Below are positions 18,757 to 64,000 of a DNA stretch of 64,000 nucleotides, one piece after another. The stretch is from Nymphaea colorata (lineage: Eukaryota; Streptophyta; Magnoliopsida; Nymphaeales; Nymphaeaceae). Numbering within the stretch: the first letter of the stretch is position 1; every line of letters starts with the position of its first letter. The stretch is from contig NC_045143.1 in the NCBI RefSeq assembly GCF_008831285.2, positions 9,433,503 to 9,497,502 on the forward strand. The letters are read 5' to 3'. The position numbers and the translations under genes were made by a program. The notes beneath the pieces are model-generated. The model was not told where the DNA came from. It made no database searches and saw nothing but the letters and a program-made list of their open reading frames with translations.

Positions 18757-19733
18757 TAGTGGCGGAGCCAAAAATTTTTTGGCTAATGGGCACCATTGTA
18801 AAAATTTTCATTTTTTGATGGGGCACAACAAATATAAGTAAGTAGATAATTGTAAGACATTTATATAAAAAATATAAAAAATGTTCCTGATGTGAGCAAC
18901 TGCCCATGCTAGCCTATATGTTGCCCCCCTACTAATCCAACTGCATGAGAGAACAATGACAATAATGTACCCTTTTAATTTATACCTCACTTCATCACTT
19001 GAGAGGTAAAAACATAAAAAGTCTAAATGAATTGAAATAATGGTGCACCTCTATACTATGCCTTGGTTGTGTTGAAAACTAAGATCTAAGAGAAGGAAGT
19101 TCTTCTATAAATTCCAAAACTATACGGTGGAAGTAAAGTGTTTTGAATTTGCAGAATTTCTTACAGCATTATTTATTCATTTATTTATTGGCTTAGTTCT
19201 TTTTTCTTTGAAATCCCTTTTTCATGAGACATCAGATATTTTTCTAAGCGTGAATTCCAAACCGACCCGAAACGTATTAAACTATCGGCTGCTCAAAGTC
19301 AAATGACCAAAAATGAGGAGCTCCTCCAATAAAAACAAAATCCAACGAAAAGTCCAAAAAAGCACAGAAAAAAAAGGATGAAAATGCGCTGAAGCATTTC
19401 TCCTGGCACAGCCACATGGCAGTCATACGAGGGCCCAATGAAAGGTATTTCTCCATTCGATTTTAAATCCACAATTTTTTACATTAAAGTGTGGATTTGA
19501 AAAACATATTTGGCGGTAAATGCTGAAATTCATAGTTTGATACAATTGTGGATTTCAGCAATCATAGATTTGAAATTTTATCGGATTTAAGATTATAAAA
19601 TTTAAAATTTTAAAAAACATCAACATGTAAGTAAAAAGAAACTATTCAAATATATTAATACAAAATTAAGAAAAATTTTGGGTTTTGTATGGACAGTTGC
19701 CTACACTTAGTCTACACCACCCTCCGCCCCTGA
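18757..19733. mobile_element. Element with AGTGGCGGAG-type ends, in the inverted unit
   Basis: The left end is AGTGGCGGAGCC and the right end reverse-complemented is AGGGGCGGAGG, giving short inverted termini. A shorter sister lies in opposite orientation at 32752-33301, so the insertion is older than the inverted duplication. It is missing from the corresponding places of the units at 46-48 and 55-56 kb. No transposase is seen. Confidence 0.45.
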
Positions 19734-21163
19734 GCATAGTCTCTGTTCGCTGCATCACAATATACCTTTTATTAATCCCTCTGTTTTATTAGGAGTTACC
19801 AGCAGCACTTTTCCGTCATTTATGTGCAGTATTGGCTTTACAGACACAGCAGCATAAACATCCACTTTTATGGATCATAACATGAAAAACAAAAAGTAAA
19901 TTTAGCTATCTTCGTAAACAAAAAAGATTTTGGGGGAATGAAATGGATATGGGCCGAAACTGCATCTGTTTGACCAAGGTAGGCTGAGGCATTTGAAACA
20001 ATAGGTTTAGTTGTCCAGTGTTTGAAGGGACTGCCATTTTTTTTTTCTGACCCTGCAAAACTTTTTAAAAGATGTTTTATTGAGAAAAAAAATTATTTAC
20101 CCTCAAACGCCCGCATAGTAAAGTATCTGACAAAAAAGTTTTTTTTTTTTTTGAAAAATTAGCTCGGTGAACCTTGAGACGTTTCCTTCTGATATAAACT
20201 TTTATTTTCTCTTTCGCTTCTCCCACTGGTTGATGGTGATCAGCCCTTGTCCACTAGTGAGCCCACTATTTAAGCGTGACTAAAAGAATTCAAACAAGTT
20301 CTAGAAGAAAGTACTTTTTAGGAACGGGTTGGAAGTTGTCGCTGGCATCAAACGCCCCCGATAAAGTATCGCAACAAAAAAGTGTTTTGAAAAAGTACGG
20401 CAGGCAGCCGTAGCTTCGTCAACCTTGGGATGTTTCCTTTTGGTATAAATTTTCATTTTCTCTTTCGCTTCTCCCACTGGTTGATGGTGACCAGCCCTTG
20501 TTGACTAGTGAGCCCATTATTTAAGCGTGACTATTTAGGAACACATGCGCATATTTAAAAATACAGTTTGGTTTTCATTTTGGTTTCAACTTGATTTCTA
20601 CCATTGGATTACTTTAGTCAAGGCTCATCTTATCTCATCCCAATGGCATAGAAGGGTAAGTTAGCTACCCATGTTACACGCCCACACACAAAATTCAATG
20701 GTGCCGTGTGGTAGATGATGTAGATGGTTAAAACTTAATAAATTGTTTCACTAAATTCAAAATAGTCACGGTTTGCATAATGGTTTATTGTGACTTTAGT
20801 GATGATTTATAATTTTTTTAGCGACTTTGTTACAGTACCCATAGGAACTCAAGGGTCGTCATTTCTAAATACTTTTGATGTTATTTGAGAAGAATAACAT
20901 TATGTTACGGTCTAACCCAAAAAATAGTTGTTTCATGAATCTGCCCTACCTCTTGAGGTAGATGCAGGAGGCGCCAAATCGGCTTCTCTGCTCCATTACT
21001 TTTGAGGAGCTCTCTTATATAGGGCACATTACTACGAAGAGATATTATTACAAAAAGGCATCAATAAAATCAGGAAACTAATAAAGTTAGCTACAGGCGT
21101 GGCTCAATCTGGAATATTCTGCTCCCTTACGCCAAATAAGCAGCTGAATTTTGCTGATGAGCA
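19734..21163 (+). repeat. Duplicated P450 upstream block, inverted copy
   Basis: Reverse complement of the blocks at about 31900-32750, 46700-48250, 55100-56000 and 63480-64000. A roughly 170-bp segment containing CTCCCACTGGTTGATGGTGA and GAGCCCA occurs twice here (20200 and 20460). The last 180 bp match 63480-63660 in reverse complement, so this is distal promoter DNA placed directly against the truncated gene. Confidence 0.75.
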
Positions 21164-22321
21164 GGCAACGGCATCTTCAATGCCGACGGGAAGACTTGGA
21201 AGGTGCAGAGGAAGTTAGCCAGCCACGAATTCAACACCCGATCGCTGCGTAAATTCGTTGAGACCGCCGTGAAGTCGGAGATCTCCGGCCGCCTCATCCC
21301 GCTTTTCACCTCTGCTGCGGCCGGAAAAACCGTCTTGGACCTCCAGGATGTGCTTCAGCGGTTCGCCTTCGATAACATCTGCAAGGTCGCTTTCGGTTCG
21401 GATCCCAGCTGCCTCGACCTCAATCTGCCTCCCTCTGAGTTCACCTCGGCTTTCAACCTCGCAGTGCGAATCTCGAGCGAGCGTTTCCGGGTCAGCTCTC
21501 CAATGGTCTGGAAAATCAAGGCTGCATTAGGATTGGGGATGGAGCGGCAACTCAGAGACGCCATCCGCGTCGTCGACGACTATGCCAGAAACCTTATCTG
21601 CGAGCGGCGGCAGAATCCGATCACTTCCCCGGAGGACTCCGACCTTCTGTCGAGATTTATGAGCTCGAGTGCTGGTGACGAGGAGTTCCTCAAAGACATA
21701 ATAATCAGTTTCCTGCTTGCCGGAATGGACACGACATCGGCCGCGTTGACATGGTTCTTCTGGTTGGTTTCCAACCACAAGCGCGTAGAGGAGGAGGTTC
21801 TGAAGGAGATATCGAGCATCAAAGAAGAAGCATTTGGCTTCGACGAAGCGAAAGAGATGCATTATTTGCACGCCGCGATCTGCGAGAGCATGAGATTGTA
21901 TCCGCCGGTGCCGACTGACGGCAAGTTCGCAGCCGAAGATGATGTTCTGCCGGACGGCACCGTGGTGCCGAAGGGGGCGGAGGTGATTTACGCTCCCTAT
22001 GCGATGGGGAGGCTGGAATTGTTGTGGGGTAAAGATTGGGAGGAGTTCCGGCCGGAGAGGTGGTTGCAGGAGGAAGGAGAGGGAGGGAACAGAAGGTTCG
22101 TGAACGAAGACCCTTACAAGTACCCTGTTTTCCAGGCAGGGCCGAGGGTGTGCTTGGGGAAGGAGATGGCCTTCATCCAGATGAAATGCATCGCTGCCAC
22201 CGTTCTCCGCGACTTTAGGGTTGTACCAGCGGTGCCCGACTTCCAGCCGGTGTTCGCATCCACACTGACTTCCAAGATGAAGGGCGGCTTTCCGGTGAGG
22301 ATTGTCCAAAGGAAGCCATGA
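21164..22321 (+). pseudogene. 5'-truncated CYP94 pseudogene
   Basis: Homology to the array genes starts abruptly at residue 121 (GNGIFNADGKTW) and runs without frameshift to the normal stop. I helix AGMDTTS, ESMR, FRPERW and the haem loop FQAGPRVCLG are all intact. In-frame TGA TGA lies just before the junction and the next in-frame Met is far inside, so no functional protein can start here. The membrane anchor, hinge and first substrate-recognition regions are lost. Over the shared part I count five differences from the gene at 30042, and at each of the five this copy agrees with the genes at 44800 and 53232. It is the only array member on the plus strand. Confidence 0.93.
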
Positions 22322-23093
22322 CAATGACCACCTGTATCTTTGTTCTTTCCTCCCTTTCCTCTGGCGCGTTTGGATTATTACTCTGTTTACTTCTTTCGGT
22401 TTTTTCAGTATTGGGTTTGTCCCAGTGTTTGCCCCCTTTGGTAGACGAGTCCTTCCCGGTACTTTTAGATGTAGAAAATATGGACATCCAGTCGGTATGT
22501 TTGAGCAGATATACACAAGTTACATATTTTCTTTATTTAATAGAAGTAGAACTTAAATTTTCTGTATTTATACAGATTTTATGTTCGTGATTTTCTATAT
22601 ATATATTTTTAAGTCTCGCATTGCTGACCATGTTTTAATCGAAATCCAGGGCTCGAATATGAGCATGAAAAGCACGAAAGTAGAGGCCCCCAAACACGAG
22701 ATAGTATGCTTGGAATGTCGTGAAGAAATTTACAAATGACAGCCGAGTGAAGAGCAAATCTCCGTCGTCCTTGTGAGTTGTAACAACATGGGGAGATGGA
22801 GCACAAATATTAGTTGAGGAATCTTCGTAATTTTATAAAAAATTATAAATTTAATATGCATTTTGAATGGAATCTGGCCAATTTTCAAAATGAAGAATAT
22901 TGAATATAGGATATTTATTGAAAACTAAATCTGATCGATTAACCTAATCCAATCAGAAGTCATTGCTTACATTGCTTAAAACGAAATCTGATAAGATTTC
23001 TTAACCAGATATTAATTTTTTTTTTCCATATCCTATTATTTCAGAACAGTTCAGTTAAATATCTAACCCAAACCACAAATATTGACATGCATA
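22322..23093 (+). repeat. Duplicated P450 3' flank, inverted copy
   Basis: Reverse complement of 44380-44795 and 52840-53230, including the GAGCATGAAAAGCACGAAAG segment. No gene of its own. Confidence 0.7.
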
Positions 23094-23225
23094 CTCCTCA
23101 TTGCCTGTACCACCTATTGTTTGATATCGTTCGGCTGCTTATGAACAGTTTTGCACAAAAAACCTCTTTTTCTTCATCCAAGTATGGCCCCAAATGTTTC
23201 CCCATAATAGGTTCATCAATTTCCT
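23094..23225 (+). pseudogene. CYP94 N-terminal relic, inverted unit
   Basis: Decayed anchor and hinge of a second CYP94: IVRLLMNSF, then YGPKCFPIIGSSISF (compare IVRLLMNSF and YGPKCHPIVGSGISF in the intact genes), ending at the same point as the relics at 42520, 51549 and 62007. The start-codon part found in the other units is missing here. Confidence 0.8.
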
Positions 23226-24954
23226 TCCATCAATTTACCACTATGCAAAAAAAAAAGGGAAAAAGGATTTAAATTCCATAGTTTATAGTCAAAACCTCAT
23301 GGTATTTCAGGTGGGATGGGAAGGGAGCCGACCTCAAATCCTTGGATCTGAAATCATATTGGATCTCAGAAGAAATAAAAACTTCTCTCATAAATATGGA
23401 AATGGAAAACAACTCTTTGTGGAGTATGAAATCGTTGTCTACATAGTGAATGGTCGATCTGCGCTGCAGACTTGAAGCCAGATTGAGCTGATGGATTTAA
23501 AAACATGGCGACTTGAGAATGATCGAACACGGCAAGCCTCAAGTTTTAAAATTTTCAAGTCTACCACGGTTGGATGTTTTTCTTGATCCAGATCCGTGGC
23601 TGGAGTTTGAACCCTCGGTCTGAAATCTGTGATTAGTCATTTTTCAGGAAATCGTGATTAATTAGAACAATTACAAAAGTCCCCAGAATCTAGATTCGAT
23701 CAAATTCCAAGATTTAGTATGATAAATTTACTTTCGCCAAAACCATACTTCTATAGATTTACTCAAATATATAGAAATAATCTTGTCATTTTCCGATTTA
23801 ACCAACTATTCTAGGGAAGCAGGTTTCGTGTTTGGAGGCAGACCACAAACAACGTGTTCAGGTCTTTCAAAATACAAAACAAAAACCATTTTCTCAGAAT
23901 AAAAAAAAAAGAAAGTAAAATAACGTACAAAAGAACCGTCATGGCAAAGGAAAGACTTTAAAGTTTATTTTATTTTTTATTTTTTATTTTTTTAAACGTG
24001 TTCATCTCCACGCAGAGAGCCGCTGATCATTCTTAGTAACCCGCTGTGAAGCTGGTATACCTAAAATTTTGTCCTTATGGTCATGACCAATGACAAACTT
24101 TAAAATATACATGAAGTCATTAAGGTGACGATTAGTAACGCACTTGTGAGGTGCACGGTAAAGTGAACTCAATATCATCGATTAGGATGTGTTGGAAGAG
24201 ACCTCATATTATATAGATTCATTGAGTTAGATAACAGCCTAACAATGTTGAAATTATTGATGGTTCGCGAGAGGCAAAGCTATCTTCTTATCTCATCACA
24301 AGTTCTCAACAACTTCAAGACTTGGGTGGTCTTATCATACACCATTCAATTTGAATAATGTACAATGCATCGTCAATGCGACACTCAGGCCGACCAAGTA
24401 TGTTATTTCTATAAAAACAAAAACCTTGACATAATTGAAATAACTTTCTTTTTCACTTTTCAGCATGCAGGTAAAACACAATTTGCATATGATTGATTGT
24501 TCTTTGACGTGCTTCTGTCAAAATGGACATCCAACTTCAACTGTGTCAATGTAGAATCAAACCTCACCTTGTTAATAATTTTTCTTACCAAATAAAACAA
24601 ACCATTTATGTGAGTTCTTTTCATGGCTATTCAAGAGTAAATCCTTTCGTGCTATAGAAAATGAAGACCCAACCCAAAACTTAAACCATTTGTTGACCGA
24701 CATAAATCAATCTTCTTCAGGGGCAGAACTATAAATTTTTTATGAGAGTGGCCAACTTACAGTTTTAAAATTTTAACAAGACCATGTTTTCCCTTTAATC
24801 CTGCTTGCCACTGTTTTGGGGTTTGGGTAGCCCTACAGTTAATCGTGATTGCCACTGTTTGCAACTTAGAGGAGCTCAGTCTTCACAAATATTATGAAAG
24901 AATGTTACTATCTGGCTGAGGTTTGAGGATAGGTAGTGTTGGGATCATGAAGGC
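23226..24954. repeat. Duplicated relic flank plus unassigned DNA
   Basis: 23226-24150 is the reverse complement of about 61110-62000, with sister copies at 41440-42510 and 51110-51540. 24160-24950 shows no gene and no clear match in the window. Confidence 0.6.
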
Positions 24955-25248
24955 AAGACTTCAGATTTGTTGGCAAAACAGACATTTTCTCACCAAAACA
25001 GACATTTTCTCACCAAGTCCGGTGGTTTCTTAGTCACGATCCATTATGGAACCATCCTATTATTATCAATTAGGCCCCAGTGTCCAACGGAAAAAATTTC
25101 AGTACGGCCGTTTATAATTTTTACAAATTTTACTGGTGCAACATTTTTCCTATTTTTTACGAATTGTGAAGGACGCATGAGTACTTTTTGAGAAAAGATC
25201 AATATGATTTATATTTTTTTTTCACACATTGCGGCGAGCCTGTCACTA
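24955..25248 (-). mobile_element. CACTA-like segment, inner part (inverted copy)
   Basis: Reverse complement of about 38600-38930 (TTCATAATTTGTAAAAAACA and neighbouring sequence). Interrupted at 25249 by a GGCCCG-rich element and resumed at 26319. Confidence 0.55.
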
Positions 25249-26318
25249 GGGGTGGGTATCCGGCCGGGCCACTAAAACCCGGCCCGGGTCGCCCCGTCGG
25301 GCTTGAAACCCGGCCCCGGCCCCGGCCCGATAATGTTGCCGGGCCGGGTACCGGGCCGAGTCCACCAAAATCAGGCCCAGCCCGGCCCGTTTGGTGGGCC
25401 GGGTTGGGTCGGATCTTCTTGCGCTCCAGTGAGTACGGTCCAACCCGTGCTCGATGTCCGCCCGTCACCGCTCGCCTGCTGAGTGTCGAATGGCAGTCGA
25501 TAGGGAGTGCCGAACGGCAGTCGATAGGGAGTGCCGAACGACAGTCGATAGGGTGGTGGTCTTTCACTGGCAGGCGGAAGGCACCCATCTTCGTGGCTGG
25601 CCGCCGGCGGATACCGCCAGGACGGCCGGCTATCGCCCACCGCGATGGCCGGTCGTCGCCCACCGAAAAACAGCTCAAAGGATCGAGAGAGGAAGAGGGA
25701 GAGGAAGCGGGAGCAGAGACGGAGAGGGAGAGTGGAGAGGGAGAAGAGGAGGAGAAGGGAGAGGGGAGCAGAGAGGGAGAGGGAGAGGAGGAGGAGGAGA
25801 AGGGGGCAGGAGCAGAGACGGAGACCAGAAGGTAGAGGGGGAGTGGAGAGGGAGAGGGATGCGGGAAGGGAGAGGAGGGAGACGGGAAGGGAGAGGAGGT
25901 AGAGTGGAGAGGGAGGCAAACGATGTCTCCCGGTGGTCTCTGCACTGAACATTGGTGGAAGCTCCAGCTGCTCCACTGTCGGTCGAACGAGAAGACGAGG
26001 GAGCCAGGGAGGTGCTTCCGCGAGGAGAGAGAAGATCGGGTGAGAAATGAAAAAACATTTAGGGTATGACAAGTTTTATATCAAATTTGGAAAATTACAA
26101 GAATGGTCCACCATATTTGCGAACTTTTCAGAAAAACGGTTATAATAACTTAATTTTCAGAAATTTATGATGCAACCGGGCGGGCCGGGCCACCGCCGGG
26201 CCAGCCTATCAGGCCCGGGCCCGGCCACCGCCAGGCCAGCCTATCCGGCACGGCCCGGCCCGGGTCCGCTGCCGGGCCAGGCCGGGCCGGCCCACCGGCG
26301 GCCCGGCCCAACACCGGA
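25249..26318. mobile_element. GGCCCG-rich hAT-like element inside the CACTA-like segment
   Basis: It starts AGGGGTGGGTATCCGGCC and ends GGCCCGGCCCAACACC, with dense GGCCCGG motifs in both arms. The core has a 22-bp sequence with GTCGATAGGGAGTGCCGAA repeated three times (25495-25560) and a long GA-rich tract (25670-25920). Frames across the GA tract are low-complexity artefacts. Compared with sister units, some CACTA-like sequence is missing at the insertion. Confidence 0.55.
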
Positions 26319-26431
26319 CGGATATGACAATCCGTCAAAGTACAGTGGCCAGTGAAACTTTTACCGAACGACACTCTCAGTAAAAAGGCAAATATCTTAC
26401 CATCCAATAATATGTCTTTGTTTTTGTAGTG
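26319..26431 (-). mobile_element. CACTA-like terminus (inverted copy)
   Basis: Ends in TTTTTGTAGTG at 26431, the complement of the CACTACAAAAA tip seen at 38321, 49202 and 57215. Subterminal CAGTAAA motifs precede it. Confidence 0.6.
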
Positions 26432-27080
26432 ATGGTTTTTCTCTGTTAACCATTGAGGTGGGCTGGTGATTCTATGCTCTACCATCGTCTTTGTTATAGA
26501 GTTTGATTTCTTTATTCCTCAGTAACCGTTCTTTGTTTCTCTTCATCTCTCTTCCTGCCTTTGTACTCAGGTAATACGTTTCCATTTGGTCACCCCTCTC
26601 TCTCTCTCTCTTTGGGTCTTGGCTTTAGCCTGCCAAGCATGTGTCCACTATATGCTGTCACCATGATAAGGATATACCTCACCTATTTTGGTATTGTGAA
26701 GTGATGAAACAACTCTTTAGTAGCACATGCACAGAGCTCAGATCGTTGTAAGGGAGGAATCACAAATCCGAGATGCCAGTCTAGGCCCCGCTGACCTCTC
26801 TATAAGACTAAGAAGGAAAGACACTCTAATGTGATGAAGGGAAGACACTCTGAATGTGATGACTCTTTATCACATGGAGAGGACATTATTTTTCAACGGC
26901 GGCACTGGATATTAGAATTTTGGAGCTTGACAACTTGTTTAATGTTGTAGTGTTGGTTAGGAATTTCACCACATGAATAGTATGTGGTGTACTGGTGTTT
27001 CATTTTTCTATTCTCTCTTGTGTTGTACCACATGAATAGTATGAGGTGATTCTTCAATGTTGAGTACATATTTTTCAGTT
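26432..27080. repeat. Duplicated spacer block, inverted copy
   Basis: Reverse complement of about 56590-57210, including CACATGAATAGTATG and the CTTGGCTTTAGCCTGCCAAG region. Sister blocks lie at 34180-34530 and 48890-49200. No coding content. Confidence 0.65.
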
Positions 27081-29835
27081 GCTTATTTTTTATGCTAGCT
27101 CTATTTTCATTGTCTCCATCCGACTTCTTTTGTTTGGGCCTACTTTTCCTTGCACATGGGGTCTGCCTTTTTCGGTAAAGGTTCCGCGGGTCTTCAGCCC
27201 AGGTAAACAGCTACATCAGTTCTCCTCGCATGCCAAGCTCCCGCCATCACAACTCCCGCCCTTGCTTCCCTCACTCCTGACCCGCCATCACAACTCCCGC
27301 CATCACAACTCCCGCCCTTGCTTCCCTCACTCCTGAAGCCGGCCTTGGCTTCTCAGTGGTGTCCTGTCTACTCTCCGCCATGCTCCCCTGAGGTACCTTA
27401 CTTGCCCCTTCATTTTCCTTCTTTGCGAGCTAGGGGGTTCACGCTTGTCCACCTCGGGATGCCCCGACCCAATGCTGCTAGCCGTTCTGTCTACTCTTGG
27501 CAACAGCCGGTCTTTTGCACCTTCACAGTCAGCTGCCCACTCGTTAGATGATTCGACATCTTGTGCGCCAATAGACCAGCCTTCTTCGATCTCCCTTGCT
27601 TAATTGTGTCTCTGTGCTGTGCTCCTATCGACTGAGGGTCGCCCCCTTGAGGTCACTATTATTGCTAACTCTTCTTAGACTATGGTCTCGATTACTTTGG
27701 CCTCTGTCGATACATCACCCCCAGTCAGTTCATCTCCCTATGTTGCCTTTACCTTTCTCTTTACCCTTGTTACCGAGCCCCCTTTGCCCCCTTTCCAACT
27801 AGGACCACCTCCTTTGCCCACCTGCTTTGGTTTTCTTTTGTTTCCATTGACAGTAGTATTGCAACCTACTTACTTTTCCAGCATGCACTTCTCCTTACAT
27901 TTAGTCATGGCTGTCCTTACACCCCATCTGTTTGCCTCTCCCCCGTTAGCCCTACCCTCCCCCACATGCCGTGTTGGCATTGTTTTCTTCGCTCTGCATT
28001 CTGATCTTGCATCCACCCCTGCTTCCCTGTCCTCCCCTCCCTCTCCTGCTCGGTTGCTTGGTCCCACCACCAGACCATTTGTTTGTTCCCTCATGCCCAG
28101 TAGGTTGCCACCTGTTTCTCCCTTGTTAGATGCGCTTGCCTCTCTTAGGGTCTCACTTCCACATGAAGAACTTGATTTCTTGCGTTCATTTTTTGTTGCC
28201 ACTATTGCGCCAAACTCCTATTCCAGCCTTGCCAGGTTACGACGAGAATTGCGTAGGATCAGGGTTCAGCGGGCTCCATCCTTCCTTCTGGTGCTGTTAG
28301 GATTGTCAGACGTACATCGGTTCACATGGTTTCCTCATGAGGGTTGTATGTTGGAATGTGCGTGACCTGAGTTCCCGTTATCGACATAGATATCTCTCTT
28401 CTTGGGTCTGTCAGCGTGGACCTTCCTTGCTTATCGTGGTAGAGACCAAGCTGTCTATGGTTTCTCATACATGCATTCGTACTTTGTTGCACCAACCGTC
28501 CTTTTGGTACCTTCCGGCTAATGGTGCCACTGGCGACATTCTGCTGGCATGGTTTTTGCCTCTTATGGGGGTTGTTATACATATTGGTAAGTACTCTATC
28601 TCGGTTATTCTCATTGGTCTCTAACCCAATGGCTTGGTCTTAGTTACTGCTATTTATGGCCCTTACGTTAGGGCCTTGCGTGACCAGCTATGGGCTGAGC
28701 TTCATCATGCTCGTGAGCTTGCTTCTTCACTATGGCTTTGGGAAGGGGGACTTCAATTGTCTGCTGCTGACTCCTCCTCACTTATCACTTTTGGTCCATT
28801 TATATATGTTTTTCACTCATTCGTTGATGATTCAACCTTTTTGACATGTCTCTAAATAATAGAAGGATTACTTGGTCCAACAATAAGAATCATCTCATTC
28901 TCCATAGGCTGGATCGTGTTTTCCTCTCCCATGAGCTGTTCACTGCTTTTCCTTCGTTGTCCTTGGTTTTAGGACCGAGACACTTGTCTGATCATGCTTC
29001 GCTGCTCCCTTCACTTCTTCTAGAAAGGGCTAGAACATGGCGCACCTGGTTCCACTTTGAACTTCAATGGCTCCAAGATGAGTTCTTTGTGGCTGCCGTC
29101 CCTAGGTAGTGGGCTTGCACCATGAATGGTAGGTGGGCTGATTTTAGGTTCTCGCATAAGCTGCATTGCATTAGGAAGGAGATTATTACCTGGAAACACA
29201 TTTTTTGGAGCGGCAAGTTTTCTAAGGTGACCGTTTGGGATGAAGAGATCATGTCCCTCTAGTCATCTGATATTTATTATGTAGATCAATCTTCCCGTCT
29301 CCTATGTCTACAGTGTCTTACTCAAGAGTGGCGGATTAGGGAGTCCATCCTCTGGCAGCAGCATTTTACGTTGGGTTGGCTTTCGTATGGAAACCAGAAT
29401 TCTAGATTCTTCCACTTGGCCGCCTCTCAAAGACACCATCAGACTTTGATACAGTCCATCGTTATTGGGTATAAGGTATTTCTTGGTAATGACATTCTTC
29501 TCTCGGCTTTGACCGCTCATTTTTGTGATTTTTACTCTAAGCCTCTTTGCTTCCGCGTCCCATTGCTAGACATTCACCTCTCCTAGACATTCACCTTTCC
29601 TACCTCTCCGTCTCATGCATGATCACTCTTGAATGACCTTTCCTACACAATAAATCAAGATTGTTGTTTGGACCCTCGGCTCTGGTAAGGTGCCCAACAT
29701 TGATGGTTTCCCTATTGAATTTTTTCGCACCTTTTGAGAGACTTGTAGAGCTTATGTGTTCACGTTTTGTGATGAATTTGTCTTCAATTCTGTCTTTCTT
29801 AAAAAATTTAATCAACCCAGCTATTCACTGAGGTG
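27081..29835 (+). mobile_element. LINE retrotransposon lacking its 3' part
   Basis: GC-richer than its surroundings. It holds a broken ORF1-like region (about 27100-28365), then the endonuclease and the very start of the reverse transcriptase. It stops where the 3' flank of the next P450 begins (about 29840). LINE copies usually lose the 5' end, so loss of the 3' end points to a later break. Confidence 0.75.
28337..29820 (+). pseudogene. LINE ORF2 remnant: endonuclease and start of reverse transcriptase
   Basis: It starts MRVVCWNVRDLSSRYRHRYL, the usual start of the AP-type endonuclease of plant L1-like elements, with ETKL as the catalytic Glu region (about 28440). Then come the domain end RITWSNN, LHRLDRVFLS and LSDHASLL (28860-29010), the pre-RT segment LGWLSYGNQNSRFFH (29365-29420) and an RT start resembling DGFPIEFFRTF (29700). 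Several frameshifts and stops break it, and the RT catalytic motifs are absent. Confidence 0.75.
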
Positions 29836-30041
29836 TCATTTATAAATTTAATCTGCTCAACATAACGACAGGATGTCCTTATTGCCTACCTCTAGAAATA
29901 CCGGGAAGGACTCCGTCTACCAAAGAAATAAGGGGGCAAACACTGGGACAAACTCAATACTGAAAAAACCGAAAGAAGTAACGGAGCAATAATCCAAACG
30001 CGCCAGACGACAGGGAGGAAAGAACAAAGATAGAGGTTGTG
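29836..30041 (-). repeat. Duplicated P450 3' flank
   Basis: Matches 44605-44799 and 53025-53231, including GGGACAAACTCAATACTGAA. The junction with the LINE is at about 29840. Confidence 0.7.
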
Positions 30042-31559
30042 TTATGGCTTCCTTTGGACAATCGTCACCGGAAAGCCGCCCTTCATCTTGGAAGTCAGTG
30101 TGGATGCAAACACCGGCTGAAAGTCGGGCACCGCTGGTACAACCCTAAAGTCGCGGAGAACGGTGGCAGCGATGCATTTCATCTGGATGAAGGCCATCTC
30201 CTTCCCCAAGCACACCCTCGGCCCTGCCTGGAAAACAGGGTACTTGTAAGGGTCTTCGTTCACGAACCTTCTGTTCCCTCCCTCTCCTTCCTCCTGCAAC
30301 CACCTCTCCGGCCGGAACTCCTCCCAATCTTTACCCCACAATGATTCCAGCCTCCCCATCGCATAGGGAGCGTAAATCACCTCCGCCCCCTTCGGCACCA
30401 CGGTGCCGTCCGGCAGAACATCATCTTCGGCTGCGAACTTGCCGTCAGTCGGCACCGGCGGATACAATCTCATGGTCTCGCAGATCGCGGCGTGCAAATA
30501 ATGCATCTCTTTCGCTTCGTCGAAGCCAAATGCTTCTTCTTTGATGCTCGATATCTCCTTCAGAACCTCCTCCTCTACGCGCTTGTGGTAGGAAACCAAC
30601 CAGAAGAACCATGTCAACGCGGCCGATGTCGTGTCCATTCCAGCAAGCAGGAAACTGATTATTATGTCTTTGAGGAACTCCTCGTCACCAGCACTCGAGC
30701 TCATAAATCTCGACAGAAGGTCGGAGTCCTCCGGGGAAGTGATCGGATTCTGCCGCCGATCGCAGATAAGGTTTCTGGCATAGTCGTCGACGACGCGGAT
30801 GGCGTCTCTGAGTTGCCGCTCCATCCCCAATCCTAATGCAGCCTTGATTTTCCAGACCATTGGAGAGCTGACCCGGAAACGCTCGCTGGAGATTCGCACT
30901 GCGAGGTTGAAAGCCGAGGTGAACTCAGAGGGAGGCAGATTGAGGTCGAGGCAGCTGGGATCCGAACCGAAAGCGACCTTGCAGATGTTATCGAAGGCGA
31001 ACCGCTGAAGCACATCCTGGAGGTCCAAGACGGTTTTTCCGGCCGCAGCAGAGGTGAAAAGCGGGATGAGGCGGCCGGAGATCTCCGACTTCACGGCGGT
31101 CTCAACGAATTTACGCAGCGATCGGGTGTTGAATTCGTGGCTGGCTAACTTCCTCTGCACCTTCCAAGTCTTCCCGTCGGCATTGAAGATGCCGTTGCCG
31201 AGGAGGTCGTAGAGCACGGAATAGGTGTTTGGTCCTTTTGGGTAGTTGTGAAACTTGGTCTTCAGCATGTGCTCGACGTTGGCCGGATTGGCGGTGACGA
31301 TTGATATGGGAACGAACAGCCGGCGGATTTGAATAGTGTGGGTTGGAGATTCACGTATGAGGTCAGTGAAGTATTGAGGTAGACGGTGGGCGTTGGCAAG
31401 GAAGGAGATGCCTGAACCCACCATTGGAAGACACTTGGAGCCATAAATGGATGAAGACGAAGATGTTTTGGCTGCGAAACTATTCATGAGTAGCCTGACT
31501 ATATGAACCAAAAGGAAGGTAGAGGCAATAAGAAGGAACAATACAGAAGCTTCTTCCAT
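30042..31559 (-). CDS. Cytochrome P450, CYP94 family, array copy A
   Basis: Intronless, 505 codons. ER anchor at residues 6-27, then PANVEHMLKTKF (92-103), GNGIFNADGKTW (121-132), I helix AGMDTTS (306-312), K helix ETMR (361-364), FRPERW (415-420) and haem loop FQAGPRVCLG with Cys450. The reading frame is complete. Expected role as for the family: ER-bound omega-hydroxylation of an acyl substrate. I count about 22 differences from the copy at 53232. Several are private to this gene: hinge GSKCLPMVG instead of GPKCHPIVG, D267, Y324, T362, S406 and T499. The hinge Pro-to-Ser change could weaken folding. A TATA box lies 72 bp upstream of the ATG. Confidence 0.95.
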   Translation of the reverse strand: MEEASVLFLLIASTFLLVHIVRLLMNSFAAKTSSSSSIYGSKCLPMVGSGISFLANAHRLPQYFTDLIRESPTHTIQIRRLFVPISIVTANPANVEHMLKTKFHNYPKGPNTYSVLYDLLGNGIFNADGKTWKVQRKLASHEFNTRSLRKFVETAVKSEISGRLIPLFTSAAAGKTVLDLQDVLQRFAFDNICKVAFGSDPSCLDLNLPPSEFTSAFNLAVRISSERFRVSSPMVWKIKAALGLGMERQLRDAIRVVDDYARNLICDRRQNPITSPEDSDLLSRFMSSSAGDEEFLKDIIISFLLAGMDTTSAALTWFFWLVSYHKRVEEEVLKEISSIKEEAFGFDEAKEMHYLHAAICETMRLYPPVPTDGKFAAEDDVLPDGTVVPKGAEVIYAPYAMGRLESLWGKDWEEFRPERWLQEEGEGGNRRFVNEDPYKYPVFQAGPRVCLGKEMAFIQMKCIAATVLRDFRVVPAVPDFQPVFASTLTSKMKGGFPVTIVQRKP

Positions 31560-31630
31560 GGCTTGAACTTGAGCTCGGGAGGATGTCCTTGGTGTTTTAA
31601 TGAGTGATTACTCCTAGCTCCTCACGCTCA

Positions 31631-34535: not shown

Positions 34536-34854
34536 AGGCCTGTTAGCAGCCGGCATTTTGCAATTGCCGCAGTTGCTGCCCTGCGCAAGACTCCCCGAGA
34601 AGGCATTCCAGGCATGACTTTCTTTAGGGGGCGATTTTTACTGTTAGCTATTCAGAGGTCGAGCAAGGTGGCGTTGGATTCGGGTATGTGTCTAGTATTT
34701 TTGGTCAAATTTTTAGATTTTTTGGACAATCTTGTGGAGAGATACAGAATTTACAAGTGCCGCAGGTTTTTAAAGTTCCCTGCGACATCATGCGACAGAG
34801 AGACTCACCTGCAACCCAGACTGTCTTCACTGGGAATCCATAGTACCAATATCA

Positions 34855-37718: not shown

Positions 37719-37727
37719 AGGGGGGGT

Positions 37728-38250: not shown

Positions 38251-38320
38251 TGAAATTTAACAAGACCATGGTAGAGCATAGAATCACCAGCCCCGTGAAT
38301 GGTTAAGAGAGAAAAACCAT

Positions 38321-46317: not shown

Positions 46318-46388
46318 GGCTTTAACTTGAGCTCGGGAGGATGTCCTTGTTATTTTAACGAGTGACTACTCCTAGCTCATCACACTCA

Positions 46389-46396
46389 TATTTATA
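46389..46396 (-). promoter_or_regulatory. TATA box of array copy B
   Basis: TATAAATA on the minus strand, 72 bp upstream of the ATG, identical context to copies A and C. Confidence 0.65.
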
Positions 46397-50097: not shown

Positions 50098-50106
50098 CTC
50101 TAACCT

Positions 50107-51548: not shown

Positions 51549-52145
51549 TGTAAGGAAATTGATGAATCTGTTATGGGGAAACATTTGGGGCCATAGGTGG
51601 ATGAAGAAAAATAGGTTTTGTGTGCAAAACTGTTGATAAGCAGCCTAACGATGTCATCCAAAGAGGGGTAGAGGCAATAAGGCGTATGCATGTCAACATT
51701 TCCAGTTCGCATCGGATATTTAAATAAATTGTACCAAAATAATCAGATGTGAAAAAAAATTTAATGTCCAGTTAAGAAATCTGATTAGATTTAGATTTAA
51801 GCAATGACTTCTGATTGGATTTGGACTACTAATCGAATTTAGTTTTTAATAAATATCTTATATTCAATGCTCTTATATTCAATGCTCTTACATTTTGAAA
51901 ATTGGCCAGATTCGATTCAAAATGCACATTTGGATTTATACATGAATGTAAAAATTAGATTTGAATCAGATTCAGAATATGAAATGGGATTTCAGTTTCA
52001 GTTTCGGATATGTCATTTTCTTTTTGTATTTGAAGAACGAATATTTGAATATCAAAAAAAAAAGCAACGGTTGAGGGTATATTTGATTCAAGTCCCATTC
52101 TTTGACATCCCTAAGGAGAAAGGAAAGTGTAAGAGTTTATTCCAT
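51549..52145 (-). pseudogene. CYP94 N-terminal relic
   Basis: Same structure as the relic at 42520: ATG GAA TAA at the start (52145), the AT-rich insertion (about 51700-52120), then DIVRLLINSF and YGPKCFPITDSSISL, ending at about 51549. Confidence 0.8.
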
Positions 52146-53231
52146 GTTTTGAATTTGTACTTCAGACGAGGGAGACAACTAAGTTACATGGGTACTTCAA
52201 TAAAGTTGACGTACCCGTGTTGCGGTACTCATGCCCAAAATGAATACTTTGACAAACTTGGATAGTTTTTAGATCAAAACCAATACAAACTGCTTAATTT
52301 GAGGTGTTTTTTTTTTCAACTCATTCATTGTTCATTAATATGTAATGATTTTATTTAAAAATCACTTGTTTATTTAAATGTTGCTTTATTTTGTTTTTAT
52401 TGTATTATTTTGCATATATATATATATATATATATCATGCCGTACTTACCCACATTTTCTAAATTTGTTATATTTGTGCTGCATATTCCCACCATACTCA
52501 TACCCACGTAATTTAAGGGGCAGGAGAGACTGTAGTGAAACTGTGACACTGCAGCGTAGTTTCAATAAAAAGTTGGAAAACAATTGCTTTTGATGCTTTA
52601 CTCATCCCTGTGATCTAACCATCTTTTTGGAGGCTTGAATTTAACGTATTATTTGTTACATTCCCTTTGTGCTTCAAATATGCAAATAGAGTACTGTCTC
52701 TTGGTTTCACTGCTCAACAGCGCACCCCTCTTCTAGAAGATCCTCTTGACTAATAGACACTATGGATATTCCCATGGGCGGAGCCAAGGGGGCCTTGCCC
52801 CACCACTAAACTGTCATTTGTAAATTTCTTACGACTTTCCAAGCGTACGTCCTCGTGTTTGTGGGCCTTTATTTTTGTGCTTTTCATTCTCATATTTGAG
52901 CCCTCAATTTGGATTAAAACATGGTGAACAATATGAGTATATATATATATATATATAAATCTGTATAAATACAAAAAATTTAAGATCTACTTCCATTAAA
53001 TATAGAAAAGAAAATATGTACCTTGTTTATATCATCTCAAACATAGCGACTGGATGTCCATATTTTCTACATCTAGGAATACCGGGAGGGACTCCGTCTA
53101 CCAAAAACTAAGGGGACAAACACAATACTGAAAAACCGAAAGAAGTAACGGAAAAATTGTCCAAATGCGAGCACGAAAGTAGGTCGACGCAGACGACAGG
53201 GAGGAAAGAACAAAGATACAGGTGGTCATTG
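52146..53231. repeat. 3' side of copy C: duplicated spacer and 3' flank
   Basis: Parallel to 43090-44799 but shorter; the GGCGGAG-ended insertion is reduced to its left tip (about 52776). (TA)n at 52414-52434 and 52938-52956. No gene. Confidence 0.6.
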
Positions 53232-54749
53232 TCATGGCTTCCTTTGGACAATCCTCACCGGAAAGCCGCCCTTCATCTTGGAAGTCAGTGTGGATGCGAA
53301 CACCGGCTGGAAGTCGGGCACCGCTGGTACAACCCTAAAGTCGCGGAGAACGGTGGCAGCGATGCATTTCATCTGGATGAAGGCCATCTCCTTCCCCAAG
53401 CACACCCTCGGCCCTGCCTGGAAAACAGGGTACTTGTAAGGGTCTTCGTTCACGAACCTTCTGTTCCCTCCCTCTCCTTCCTCCTGCAACCACCTCTCCG
53501 GCCGGAACTCCTCCCAATCTTTACCCCACAACAATTCCAGCCTCCCCATCGCATAGGGAGCGTAAATCACCTTCGCCCCCTTCGGCACCACGGTGCCGTC
53601 CGGCAGAACATCATCTTCGGCTGCGAACTTGCCGTCAGTCGGCACCGGCGGATACAATCTCATGCTCTCGCAGATCGCGGCGTGCAAATAATGCATCTCT
53701 TTCGCTTCGTCGAAGCCAAATGCTTCTGCTTTGATGCTCGATATCTCCTTCAGAACCTCCTCCTCTACTCGCTTGTGGTTGGAAACCAACCAGAAGAACC
53801 ATGTCAATGCGGCCGATGTCGTGTCCATTCCAGCAAGCAGGAAACTGATTATCATGTCTTTGAGGAACTCCTCGTCACCAGCACTCGAGCTCATAAATCT
53901 CGAAAGAAGGTCGGAGTCCTCCGGGGAAGTGACCGGATTCTGCCGCCGCTCGCAGATAAGGTTTCTGGCGTAGTCGTCGACGACGCGGATGGCGTCTCTG
54001 AGTTGCCGCTCCGTCCCCACTCCTAATGCAGCCTTGATTTTCCAGACCAATGGAGAGCTGACCCGGAAACGCTCGCTCGAGATTCGCACTGCGAGGTTGA
54101 AAGCCGAGGTGAACTCAGAGGGAGGCAGATTGAGGTCGAGGCAGCTGGGATCCGAACCGAAAGCGACCTTGCAGATGTTATCGAAGGCGAACCGCTGAAG
54201 CACATCCTGGAGATCCAAGACTGTTTTTCCGGCCGCAGCAGAGGTGAAAAGCGGGATGAGGCGGCCGGAGATCTCCGACTTCACGGCGGTCTCAACGAAT
54301 TTACGCAGCGATCGGGTGTTGAATTCGTGGCTTGCTACCTTCCTCTGCACCTTCCAAGTCTCCCCGTCGGCGTTGAAGATGCCGTTGCCGAGGAGGTCGT
54401 AGAGCACGGAATGGGAGTTTGGTCCTTTTGGGTAGTTGTGAAACTTGGTCTTCAGCATGTGCTCGACGTTGGCCGGATTGGCGGTGACGATTGATATGGG
54501 AACGAACAGCCGGCGGATTTGAATAGTGTGGGTCGGAGATTCACGTATAAGATCAGTGAAGTATTGAGGTAGACGGTGGGCATTGGCAAGGAAGGAGATG
54601 CCTGAACCCACTATGGGATGACACTTGGGGCCATAAATGGATGAAGACGAAGGGGTTTTGGCTGCGAAACTATTCATGAGTAGCCTAACTATATGAACCA
54701 AAAGGAGGATTGAGGCAATAAGAAGGAACAGTACAGAAGCTTCTTCCAT
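53232..54749 (-). CDS. Cytochrome P450, CYP94 family, array copy C
   Basis: Intronless, 505 codons with the same landmarks as copy B (hinge 39-48, AGMDTTS 306-312, ESMR 361-364, FRPERW 415-420, Cys450). At the three sites where it differs from copy B (I78, A290, L407) it has the residue shared with copy A, so copy B carries the derived changes. 3' flank and promoter are also nearly the same as those of copy B. Expected ER-bound omega-hydroxylase; substrate unknown. Confidence 0.96.
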   Translation of the reverse strand: MEEASVLFLLIASILLLVHIVRLLMNSFAAKTPSSSSIYGPKCHPIVGSGISFLANAHRLPQYFTDLIRESPTHTIQIRRLFVPISIVTANPANVEHMLKTKFHNYPKGPNSHSVLYDLLGNGIFNADGETWKVQRKVASHEFNTRSLRKFVETAVKSEISGRLIPLFTSAAAGKTVLDLQDVLQRFAFDNICKVAFGSDPSCLDLNLPPSEFTSAFNLAVRISSERFRVSSPLVWKIKAALGVGTERQLRDAIRVVDDYARNLICERRQNPVTSPEDSDLLSRFMSSSAGDEEFLKDMIISFLLAGMDTTSAALTWFFWLVSNHKRVEEEVLKEISSIKAEAFGFDEAKEMHYLHAAICESMRLYPPVPTDGKFAAEDDVLPDGTVVPKGAKVIYAPYAMGRLELLWGKDWEEFRPERWLQEEGEGGNRRFVNEDPYKYPVFQAGPRVCLGKEMAFIQMKCIAATVLRDFRVVPAVPDFQPVFASTLTSKMKGGFPVRIVQRKP

Positions 54750-54820
54750 GGCTTTAACTTGAGCTCGGGAGGATGTCCTTGTTATTTTAACGAGTGACTA
54801 CTCCTAGCTCATCACACTCA

Positions 54821-54828
54821 TATTTATA
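54821..54828 (-). promoter_or_regulatory. TATA box of array copy C
   Basis: TATAAATA on the minus strand, 72 bp upstream of the ATG. Confidence 0.65.
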
Positions 54829-57214
54829 CAAGAGAGAGAGTGTGTGTCTGTGTTGAAGCGGCAAGAGATTTGCTGCGCAAGCGGTGACGTTGCTGAAGAA
54901 TCGTGTGGACGAAGAAAAGTTCTTAGTTTCTTCTAGTAGTGTTTGACGTTCGAAGCTTCCTTCCCAACCATGTCTGAAGTATTTTGGAGCTAGCATGGGC
55001 CCGGAAGGGCTGGTCCAGGTGGGAGAAGCGAGAGAAAGAACTAGACTTGGAGATTCCCCCAACATTTTCTAAGGTATTCAAGTAACATTGCCTCAAGAAG
55101 CTCTACTTTGTGTTGCATCTAAGGAAGATTCATAAAACATTTTTTAACGTATATAACGAACTGAACCATTTGACTACCTTCAGTTACTATGGGAGCATAC
55201 CACATGGCACTATTAGATTTTGCACTATTAGATTTTGGTGTGTGTAAAATGGGTAGCTACCTTACCATTTTATACCAGATTGGATGAGATAAGATGAGCC
55301 TTGACTAAAGCAATCTAATGGATGAAATCAAGTTGAAACAAAATGAAAAATAAACTGTATTGTTAAGAGGGAAATGGACATAATAGCACGAAACAAATTA
55401 ACTTAATAAATATGCAGCTTCCACGACTCCCATTCAGTTTTGTATATAAAGTATCAAAGATTCTGGTTTTCTTTCTAGATATGTTCATGTCTTCTTAAAA
55501 AGTACTTTCTTCTAGAACTTGTTTGAATTCTTTTAGTCACGCTTAAATAGTTGGCTCACTACTGGACAACGGCTGGTCACCATCAACTAGTGGGAGAAGC
55601 GAAAGAGAAAACGAAAGTTTATATCAAAAGAAAACATTTTAAGGTTAACCAAGATAAGCCTGCCGTACTTCTTAAAAAAAAAAATCTTTTTTGTCAGGAT
55701 ACTTTATTACGGGGTCGTTTGATGGTAAAGAGATTTTTTTTTCTGAATAAAACAATTTTTAAAAAGGTTTTTGCATGGTGAGAAAAAAATTTACAGTCCC
55801 ATCAAAGACTGGACAACTAAACGCATTGTTTCCCTTGCCTCAGCTTACCTTGGTCAAAGCGATGCAGTTTTGGCCCATATCCATTTCATTCTCCCTAAAT
55901 CTTTTTGTTTATCAAGATAGCTAAATTTACTTTTTATTTTTCATGTTATGATCCATAAAAGTGAATGTTTGTGCTGCTGTATCTGTGACTGCCCACAAGG
56001 AGACCCATATATATATTTTTTAATTTTGTATTGATATTTTAGAGTAATTTTTTTTACTGACATGTTGGTGTTCCTTAAAATTTAAAATTTTATTTAGAAT
56101 TTTCTGGTTCTGCCGCTTTGCTTCTTGAGGAAGTCTTTTTCATCTTTTCTCCAGCACTCGTCCACATGTAACTAAAAGCAGGAAGATAAACGGTTAGATA
56201 TAGTTTGGTGTTTATGGCTACACCAAATCTAACGTAAATATGCGTTTTCATGTATTTTTTAAACAATGTCATTTATGCATCGAAATGAACGCTCCAATTC
56301 CTTAAGCATCCTCCTTCAATACGTCCATGTGCGTAGGGAACTAATTTCTAGTTGATAATTCTTGCAAAAAGAGCTCTTTTATTGTATAATTGGATTTCTA
56401 ATAATTACAGAAGGGTAGATAGAGCTTCACTGTCGTTCTATACTTAATTGCTCCCAAGTTGAAATTTCAGCAGTGCAGATATGATCGACGTTATTCCCCT
56501 TCTCATAAGATGCCACCCAAACAGGGAAGCGAATATTGCAGAATAGAAAAATGTGAAAGAGAGAGAGACTGATGTACTCAATTTTGCAAAAAACACCCAC
56601 TAACTGGCAGTTGGGGGACCTAAAAATCACCTCATACTATTCATATGGTACAACACGAGAGAATTGAAAAATGAAACACCAGTACAACACCACATGCTAT
56701 TCATGTGGTGGAATTCCAAACCAACACTGCAACATTAAACAAGTTGTCAAGCTCAAAAATCCTATTATCCAGCGTCGTCCTAGAAAAATAATGTCCTTTC
56801 CATGTGATAAAGAGTCATCACATTCAGAATGTCTTCCCTTCATCACATTAGAGTGTCTTTCCTTCTTAGTCTTGCAGAGAGGTCAGCCGGGCCAAAACTA
56901 GCATCTTGGATTGGTGATTTCTCCCTTACATTGATATGAGCTCTGTGCATGTATTACTAAAGAGTTGCTTCATCACTTCACAGTACCAAAATAGGTGTGG
57001 TGACAGCATAGCCCACACATGCTTGGCAGGCTAAGGCCAAGACCGAGAGAGATAGAGAGAGGGGCGACCAAATGGAAATGTATTACCTTAGTACAAAAGC
57101 AGGAAGAGAGAGAGAGAAGGGGTTCTGAGGAATTCAGGAATCCAACTCTATAACGAAGACCATGGAAGAACATAGAATCACCAGTCTCATGAATGGTGAA
57201 CAGAGAAAACCCAT
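54829..57214 (-). repeat. Duplicated upstream block of copy C
   Basis: Promoter to about 55090, then one copy of the segment repeated twice in unit B (about 55420-55720), 55990-56600 shared with unit B, and the spacer 56600-57210 shared with all units. Near 57151-57165 it preserves the unoccupied site of the Copia insertion found in unit A. Confidence 0.65.
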
Positions 57215-57769: not shown

Positions 57770-57772
57770 TTA

Positions 57773-60914: not shown

Positions 60915-60917
60915 TTA

Positions 60918-62006
60918 AGTTGCTACACGATTAACCATAGAACGACCCAATCCCCAAAGCAGTGTCGACCCAAGGGCAAGAAACAAAAGGTGAGGTTTCA
61001 CTTATTATTGTACCCTAGGTTCCAAAGTAGTGTGGAACTGGGACGCAAAGAGAAGAGGTGACGGTCCACTTCACGGTGCACCTCACAAGTGCGTTACTAA
61101 TCGTCACCTTAATGACAAAACTTCATGTATATTTTTACAACTTTATATTAATTGAATTATATTTCATTTTGGTGTCTACTTTAAAGTTTGTTAATCATCA
61201 CCATAATGACAAAATTTTAGGTATACTAGTTTTATAACTGGTTATTAAGAATGAGCAGCGGCTAGCTGAAAAAAAAAAAGGAATCTTTAAAGTCTTTTGC
61301 CATGAGGGTTTTGTTATTTTACTTTTTTTATTCTGAGAAAATGGTTTTTGTTTTGTATTTTGAAAGACCTGAACACCTTGGTTGTGGTCTGCCTCCAACC
61401 ACGAAACCTGCTTCCGTAGAATAGTTGGTTAAATCGGAAAATGATAAGATTATTTCTATATATTTGAGTAAATCTATAGAAGTATGGTTTTGGCGAAAGC
61501 AAATTTATCATACAAAATCTTGGAATTTGATCGAATCTAAATTCTGGGGACTTTTCTAATTGTTCTAATTAATCACGATTTCCTGAAAAATGACTAATCA
61601 CAGATTTCAGACGGAGGGTTCAAACTCCAGCCACGGATCTGGATCAAGAAAAACATCCAACCGTGGTAGACTTGAAAATTTTAAAATTTGAGGCTTGCCG
61701 TGTTCGATCATTCTCAAGTCGCCATGTTTTTTAAATCCATCAGCTCAATCTGGCGTCGAGTCTGCAGCGAAGATCGACCATTCACTATGTAGACAACGAT
61801 TTCATACTCCACAAAGAGTTGTTCTCCACTGCCATATTTATGAGAGAAGTTTTTATTTTTTCTGAGATCCAATATGATTTCAGATCCAAGGATTTGAGGT
61901 CGGCTCCCCTCCCATCCCACCTGAAAATACCATGAGGTTTTCACTATAAACTATGGAATTTAAATCCTTTTTCCCTTTTTTTTTTTTGCATAGTGTAAAT
62001 TGATGG
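60918..62006 (-). repeat. Duplicated spacer and relic flank, unit D
   Basis: Closest visible relative is the inverted copy at 23226-24150. Contains the uninterrupted site TCACCTTAATGACAAAAC (about 61099) that is occupied at 40673 in unit A. Confidence 0.65.
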
Positions 62007-62546
62007 AAGGAAATTGATGAACCTATTATGGGGAAACATTTGGGGCCATAGGTGGATGAAAAAAAAGAGGTTTTGGGTGCAAAACTGTTCATAAGTGGCC
62101 TAACCATGTCAACTAAAAGGGGGTTATAGGCAATGAGGAGTATGCATGCCAATATTTCTCGTTTGGGTCAGATATTTATCTAACTGTTCCCAAAGAATAG
62201 GATATGGAAAAAAGTTTTAATTTCCGGTCAAGAAATCTTATCAGATTCGGATTTAAGCAATGCTTTCTGATTAGATTCGGATTACCGATCAGATTTAGTT
62301 TTCAATAAATATCCTACATTCAATACTCTTACATATTGAAAATTGGCAAGATTCGATTTAAAATACATTTTTGGATTTATATGTGAATGTAAAATAGGAT
62401 TTCATATTCAGCTTCATATATGTCTTTTTTTTTTTTGTATTTGAAGAATGAATATTTGAATATCCAAAGAAACGAGGGTATATTTGATTCAAGTCTCATT
62501 CTTTGACATCCCTAAGGAGAAGGAAAAGTGTAGGAGTTTATTCCAT
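62007..62546 (-). pseudogene. CYP94 N-terminal relic
   Basis: Again ATG GAA TAA (62546), the AT-rich insertion (about 62160-62520), then DMVRPLMNSF and YGPKCFPIIGSSISF, ending at about 62007. Confidence 0.8.
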
Positions 62547-62884
62547 GCTTTGAATTTGTACACCCTGCGATGCTTTTGTTTTTTGGAATGATTGACTACT
62601 CTTAGCTCCCCCCTTTCGCCGTTATAGAAGAGAGGGAGGCAGCTAAGCCACATGGGTACTTCGATAAGGTTCATGTACCCATGTTGCGGTACTCATGCCC
62701 AAAGTTAGTGTTTGGACACACTTGGGTAGTTTTTAGATCACAACCAATTCAAATTGGTTAATTTTGGGTGATTTATTTTTTTCTAACTCAGTCATTGTTC
62801 ATTAACATGTAATGGTTTTATTTAAAATCACTTGTTTATTTAAAAGTTTCTTTATTTTATGGGATGAAGACGTGTCCAAACTAT
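62547..62884. other. Spacer between relic and stub
   Basis: Decayed relic promoter, then AT-rich DNA up to the deletion junction at about 62884. The normal roughly 2 kb of spacer, 3' flank and P450 body is missing. Confidence 0.5.
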
Positions 62885-63021
62885 ATGGGATGACACTTGG
62901 GGCCATAAATGGATGAAGACGAAGGGGTTTTGGCTGCGAAACTATTCATGAGTAGCCTAACTATATGAACCAAAAGGAGGATTGAGGCAATAAGAAGGAA
63001 CAGTACAGAAGCTTCTTCCAT
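62885..63021 (-). pseudogene. CYP94 N-terminal stub (codons 1-46)
   Basis: Start ATG at 63021, then the anchor and hinge exactly as in copies B and C up to YGPKCHPI (residue 46). Similarity ends at about 62885 at a deletion junction. Promoter and TATA box are intact, so transcription may still begin here, but no haem domain remains. Confidence 0.9.
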
Positions 63022-63092
63022 GGCTTTAACTTGAGGTCGGGAGGATGTCCTTGTTATTTTAACGAGTGGCTACTCCTAGCTCATCGCACTCA

Positions 63093-63100
63093 TATTTATA
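63093..63100 (-). promoter_or_regulatory. TATA box of the stub
   Basis: TATAAATA, 72 bp upstream of the ATG, as in copies A-C. Confidence 0.6.
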
Positions 63101-64000
63101 CAAGAGAGAGAAAGAGAGTGTCTGTGTTGAAGAGGCAAGAGATTTGCTGCGCAAGCGGTGACGTTGCTGAAGAATCGTGTGGACGAAGAAAAGTTCTTAG
63201 TTTCTTCTAGTAGTGTTTGACGTTCGAAGCTTTCTTCCCAAACATGTCTGAAGTATTTGGGAGCTAGCATGGGCCCGGAAGAGCTGGTCCAGGTGGGAGA
63301 AGGGAGAGAAAGAACTAGACTTGGATATTCCCCCACCATTTCTAAGTTACTTCTTTCCTGGTATTCAAGTAACATTGCCTCAAGAAGCATGAATGAACAA
63401 GTTAACCGTTAATGGCAATTCGTCTGTGGCAGCACACTGAAGTTTACTTCATGTGCTCATTGTTATACTTTCAGTCAGCTCCCAGCTTATGAGCAAAATT
63501 CAGCTGCTTATTTGGCGTAAGGAGCAGAATATTCCCGATTGAGCCACGCCTGTAGCTAACTTGATTATTTTCCTGATTTTATTGATGTTTTTTTGTAATA
63601 ATATCTCTTCGTAGTAATGTGCCCTGTATAAGAGAGATCCTCAAAGTAATGGACCAGAGAAGCCGATTTTTTTCCCTCCCCTGTTTCCCGTGCCTTTCTT
63701 TGCTCTGTTTTGTCTCCGCACCCTCCAGTATGTTTTTGCATCTACATCGAAAGGTAGGGCAGATTCATTAAACTTTTCTCAAAGTATATAAAGAATTTTA
63801 CCATTTTTTGAGTGAGATGCATCAGAAAGTAACATAATGTTATTCTTTCCAAACAACTCCAAAAGTATTTAGAAATGACCACCCTTCAGTTCCTATGGGT
63901 ACTGTAACAAAGCCGCTAAAAAAATTATAAATCATCACTAAAGTCGCAATAAACCGTCACCGCACAAAAACCGTGGCTTTTGTAAATTTAATGACCGTTT
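63101..64000 (-). repeat. Duplicated upstream block of the stub
   Basis: Proximal promoter to about 63400, as in copy A (keeps ACTTCTTTCCTGGTATTC, lost in B and C). 63480-64000 is the reverse complement of about 20720-21163, the flank of the plus-strand pseudogene. No gene. Confidence 0.7.

Follow-up and report, generated by a model that had tools for sequence, protein, structure and literature searches.

The 64,000-nucleotide window of Nymphaea colorata analysed here (C6:9433503-9497502, in a source genome of 408 Mb and 783 contigs; positions below are those of the window unless prefixed C6) carries an array of P450 genes, each embedded in a larger repeated unit. Open reading frames (ORFs) and tblastn agree with the inventory of an earlier note on this DNA, that is, three intact copies (A, B and C), one 5′-truncated copy (T) and one stub (S). 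Sequence exchange between the units is limited to the gene region. The units probably go back to old segmental duplications, and recurrent ectopic (non-allelic) gene conversion would since have homogenised their genes, those of the broken copies among them.

30042..31559, minus strand: A, intact P450, 505 codons (ORF; motifs)
44800..46317, minus strand: B, intact P450, 505 codons (ORF; motifs)
53232..54749, minus strand: C, intact P450, 505 codons (ORF; Pfam p450, E 9.9e-64)
21164..22321, plus strand: T, 5′-truncated P450, codons 121-505, no internal stop (tblastn; junction)
62884..63021, minus strand: S, stub, codons 1-46 (tblastn)
44758..46669, minus strand: B-C homogenised tract, B side (near promoter, gene and 42 bp past the stop); divergence rises at both ends
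53190..55101, minus strand: B-C homogenised tract, C side; 19-bp insertion at the 3′ edge, replaced sequence at the 5′ edge

Genes and flanks in units B and C

Between the genes of B and C, differences amount to 7 of 1518 coding bases and 4 of 351 synonymous sites, and between their near promoters to none of 352 positions. At the protein level three residues distinguish them (F78I, D290A and F407L), while 22 separate A from C, both figures being those that the earlier note had counted by eye. The aligned flank blocks, in contrast, differ at 7 to 16% of sites (U1 45/570, U2 16/239, U3 21/195, D3 20/216, 3′ flank 55/391, D4 44/270), and the spacers carry unit-specific inserts. With the two most diverged blocks left out, Fisher's test of the synonymous sites against U1, U2, U3 and D3 combined (102/1220) gives 9e-8. 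The longest silent stretch without a difference covers 544 sites, a length that 20,000 shuffles never approached (none above 209); this test used third codon positions and its own alignment, in which the 3′ flank differs at 52/391.

The homogenised tract starts 352 bp upstream of the ATG and ends about 42 bp past the stop codon, and within its 1912 bp all seven differences are coding. Both edges coincide with structural breaks in C. A 13-bp promoter deletion is found in B and C only, among A, B, C and S, and U1 and the coding sequence agree in grouping B with C.

A control is offered by G (window position 93315-94838) and J (L027, C6:9574366-9575874), a pair from the same cluster that was duplicated together with its flanks. 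Synonymous sites differ at 37/362 and flanks at 91/607 (the two windows that overlap the gene ends, 5/141 and 9/150, are not counted), so silent sites nearly match the pace of the flanks in this cluster. The ratio of synonymous to flank rate is about two thirds in G-J and about one seventh in B-C. Because flanks and silent coding sites of B and C disagree, the likeness of the two genes dates the exchange of sequence and not the duplication. The diverged flanks also argue, indirectly, against an assembly in which a single locus appears twice, as B and as C.

Exchange involving copies A, T and S

T has lost about 0.8 kb, comprising the near promoter and the first 120 codons. It differs from A at 5/260 synonymous sites versus 130/896 flank sites (p 2.5e-10), and changes private to T number 1/1158 in the coding sequence versus 57/540 upstream, the corresponding counts for A being 9 and 28. 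At sites that separate A from B/C, T shares the state of A at 15, all at or before position 1177, and that of B/C at 8, five of them after 1177 (permutation test on these 23 sites, 5000 permutations, p 0.0064; with the stop codon included the B/C class rises to 9). T is thus likely, though not firmly, a mosaic of A-like and B/C-like sequence. The stub S matches B and C at every coding position (0/138) and differs from A at 11/138; its promoter differs from that of B at 17/352. The best reading of these patterns is that both broken copies take part in the exchange. At the break in S, about 26 bp of filler (62858-62884) repeat adjacent gene sequence, which suggests end joining with local templates.

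Several observations weigh against homogenisation as general as this. The A-B contrast is modest (synonymous 19/350 versus flanks 115/995, p 8e-4), and the first 60 codons of A differ from those of B at 6/46 synonymous sites, a flank-like level; for both reasons A seems to have escaped some of the exchange, its N-terminal third above all. Among the changes in this third are T112S and Y113H, some 20 residues N-terminal to the WKVQR motif, in a region that we take to be one usually counted as substrate recognition. Not all flanks are equally diverged, either: the A-B 3′ flank differs at 12/191 (first 190 bp after the stop) and the A-T U3 block at 11/173. As for the mosaic, changes private to A would also yield sites at which T matches B/C; judged against the outgroups K, E and F, position 1085 is the single clear case of a derived state common to T and B/C, and these outgroups are near saturation. 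The evidence, moreover, is the sequence of one genome assembly.

A further conjecture, which we regard as doubtful, is that T and S are not passive debris but working templates, a reservoir for the repair or re-mixing of the live genes. If true, truncated neighbours would help to maintain or diversify live enzymes.

Competing explanations and described cases

In the proposed scheme, a unit of roughly 8-10 kb would have been copied segmentally long ago, each of the five copies once holding an intronless CYP94-like P450; an older P450 fossil is present in four of the five units today. Recurrent ectopic gene conversion, reaching no further than the gene and its near promoter, would keep the genes alike. 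The latest large event would be the one of about 1.9 kb between B and C, with others between A and T, between B/C and S, and probably between B/C and T. Purifying selection on the reading frames (omega is 0.2-0.4 in close pairs of these P450 genes) would keep the partners similar enough to pair, while the flanks would drift and gather inserts until they recombine poorly. Both the choice of conversion over double crossover and the part given to selection are what we infer from these patterns.

A reciprocal double crossover, or the re-insertion of a 1.9 kb gene cassette into unit C, is the alternative that fares best, and would account for the 19-bp insertion and the replaced sequence lying exactly at the tract edges in C. 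We consider it improbable, since the genes of A, B and C sit at an equal position in their units between homologous flanks, and several copy pairs are affected; T, moreover, is inverted relative to A, so that unequal crossovers recurring between the two would rearrange the DNA that lies between. Less likely still is that there was no exchange at all, the silent sites and promoter being strongly constrained or the flanks being methylated, repeat-like and fast-mutating. Promoters and codon usage can be constrained, and the flanks do hold inserts, but transversions alone keep the B-C contrast (promoter 0/352, flank 44/1220, p 2e-5), and the decay of methyl-cytosine does not raise transversions. 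The near-equal coding and flank rates of G and J in the same cluster also speak against this alternative, as does the like pattern in the promoterless T.

That similar copies were blended during assembly polishing has very little to recommend it: seven B-C differences survive within the tract, the 13-bp deletion is absent from A and S, and copies several percent apart at the start would not be easily blended. Least credible of all is the reading of the earlier note, in which B and C are a recent whole-unit duplication in an array that is expanding now, with copies still being born, for although only three residues and 7/1518 coding bases separate them, and they are the closest pair in U1 as well, their flank blocks are 7 to 16% apart, far more than the synonymous sites (4/351), and hold differing inserts.

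Among described systems, the tandem triplication of HMA4 in Arabidopsis halleri, where ectopic gene conversion and concerted evolution were reported at inter-copy identities of 99 to 99.3%, comes closest to conversion as proposed here, with tandem plant genes and homogenised coding sequences (PMC3749932). That study drew on many individuals and found promoters with another history, a sweep (PMC3749932), whereas here one genome was analysed, the near promoter lies inside the B-C tract, and broken copies take part. A survey in rice lists 377 conversions in multigene families, some with pseudogenes and with P450 among the families named, and conversion partners on the same chromosome tend to be near each other (PMC2277409). 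Rice tracts have a mean of 130 nt and a range of 4-1237, compared with about 1.9 kb for the B-C tract (PMC2277409). In Dioscorea zingiberensis, 6 of 23 CYP94 genes are tandem, as the CYP94-like genes are here; Ks was taken there as duplication age, and the sections consulted make no mention of conversion (PMC9531337). P450 clusters of bees follow birth-and-death evolution, with tandem birth and decay as seen here (PMC8670302), but in the Nymphaea array the units go back a long way, and the likeness of their genes is of a later date than the duplications. A search of the open-licence literature, mostly by title, found no report of conversion among CYP94 genes.

The locus is a new case of the known phenomenon of concerted evolution, with a long tract and with near promoter and broken copies included. 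The synonymous divergence (Ks) of tandem genes is often taken to measure how long ago they duplicated. At this locus such a reading would underestimate the age of the B-C duplication about seven-fold and give a dead copy that separated long ago the look of a nearly new one. The array could thereby serve as a compact test case in which flanks date the duplications and genes date the last exchange, while the dead copies, whose own product is under little selection, keep a record of exchange.

Array layout and the wider P450 cluster

The earlier note described whole units repeated across 18757-64000. Homology does run from 19311 to 63994, but units A and S are incomplete: that of A ends at about 29847 and lacks the downstream segment and the fossil P450, and in S merely about 3.1 kb are retained. 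A and B match each other at 92.4% over 2587 aligned columns, far beyond chance. The orientation of T is opposite to that of A, B, C and S. Outside 19311-63994, self-matches and the flanking DNA revealed no further repeat unit on either side, only gene relatives and a single 188-base match to a unit segment (76976-77161). The interval of the earlier note omits a fourth intact relative inside the window, D, and several relatives to the right of the window. Further features of the window are as follows.

13887..15413, minus strand: D, intact P450 relative of 508 codons, not part of a repeated unit (ORF; Pfam p450, E 3.6e-63)
19311..27054, plus strand: unit T, inverted (minus-strand self-matches to units A, B, C and S)
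23114..23227, plus strand: fossil P450 N-terminal fragment, unit T (tblastn, 38 aa at 76%)
27055..29846, plus strand: insert between unit T and the A 3′ end, presumably LINE-like; without homology to other units
34540..38242, plus strand: insert in the A-B spacer, copia-type retrotransposon remnants; no self-match, absent from other units
38321..38331, plus strand: CACTA-like terminus CACTACAAAAA, A-B spacer; also at 49202 and 57215, inverted at 26424
42517..42630, minus strand: fossil P450 fragment, unit B (tblastn, 38 aa at 71%)
51554..51652, minus strand: fossil P450 fragment, unit C (tblastn, 33 aa at 73%)
62006..62140, minus strand: fossil P450 fragment, unit S (tblastn, 45 aa at 69%)

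Four of the five units have the fossil P450 (about codons 9-53) on the downstream side of the gene's site, the place being taken in unit A by the LINE-like (long interspersed nuclear element) insert. That the array is decaying, as had been proposed, is borne out by the broken T and S and by the fossils, which across 36 codons show mean synonymous (pS) and nonsynonymous (pN) differences of 0.12 and 0.10, close to neutral. A 36-codon frame is open in all four; a functional fossil peptide was considered on that account and rejected, given pN near pS.

A CACTA-like segment had also been assigned to the units. A CACTA transposon would have two inverted termini that begin with CACTA, and a 3-bp target duplication. 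One terminus is indeed found in four of the five, but no partner terminus could be distinguished from shuffled sequence: 15 candidate pairs were listed against 6-20 in 20 shuffles, and in 0/15 did the 3-bp flanks match. A CACTA element as such was consequently dropped, the single terminus having partner pairs no commoner than in shuffles.

The insert in unit A is called LINE-like, presumptively, for a resemblance of its ORFs; the four that were tested gave no match in Pfam. Within the A-B spacer insert, the ORF at 36417-37010 matches SH3_retrovirus in Pfam (E 7.6e-14). No pair of long terminal repeats (LTRs) was found in 34300-38400, and LTR dating of this insert was dropped for that reason. 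A 107-bp tandem duplication (38030-38243, 99% identical) adjoins the retrotransposon remnant. In unit T, the GC-rich segment 25260-25500 accounts for 37 of the 42 genome matches listed and is a dispersed repeat. Elsewhere in the window, the ORF at 8748-9125 matches DUF659 (E 4e-22) and is, we presume, the remnant of a hAT-type transposase, while in the diverged tandem array at 1082-1999 the periods are about 57, 112 and 169 bp. A search of the whole window against Rfam returned nothing at the gathering score.

A, B and C are intronless, single-ORF genes, to which D is 71% identical in nucleotide sequence. The helix-I, ExxR and haem Cys motifs are present in A, B, C, D and T, S being too short to include them. 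The Pfam profile PF00067 is matched over the catalytic domain by C and D, and identity to C is 96% for A and 99% for B. The CYP94 name for these genes is a presumptive one, taken over from the earlier note. Membership of CYP94 calls for about 40% identity or more to named CYP94 proteins. Fatty-acid hydroxylation is a CYP94 activity. Published CYP94 roles include the oxidation of jasmonoyl-isoleucine (JA-Ile), and a role in sterol side-chain oxidation has been proposed (PMC9531337). Judging from family alone, the predicted activity of the encoded enzymes is hydroxylation of fatty acids, oxylipins or sterol side chains. The best matches among solved structures, LUTEIN DEFICIENT 5 and the cholesterol 24-hydroxylase CYP46A1, are too distant to name a substrate, and matches in NCBIfam were found only far below the cut-off.

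A genome search with C as query, in which the best 85 of 301 candidates were scored, gave at least 36 matches at E 1e-60 or better. At least 12 of these lie on C6, spanning about 149 kb from D (C6:9447398) to K (C6:9595929); those listed are A, B, C, D, E, F, G, J and K, all stop-free, the truncated T, and two with stops (near C6:9546677 and C6:9581001). S and another broken copy (window position 102483-103639) came from local tblastn on the flanks only. A protein tree of 20 of the 36 listed (not included are T, the two matches that contain stops and 13 more, for the most part partial or more distant) places A, B and C together, with E, F and K next (support 85/92, below the starred level), and pairs D with a copy on C8 (97/94). 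One clade comprises 16 proteins from C6, C8, C1, C2 and C3, apart from four more distant ones.

In G and J the helix-I Asp is replaced by Tyr (AGMYT); the other proteins of the tree have AGxDT in 17 cases and no match in one. Both frames are intact, with a G-J omega of 0.42, and the oxygen-activating site is possibly altered in a form kept in two copies.

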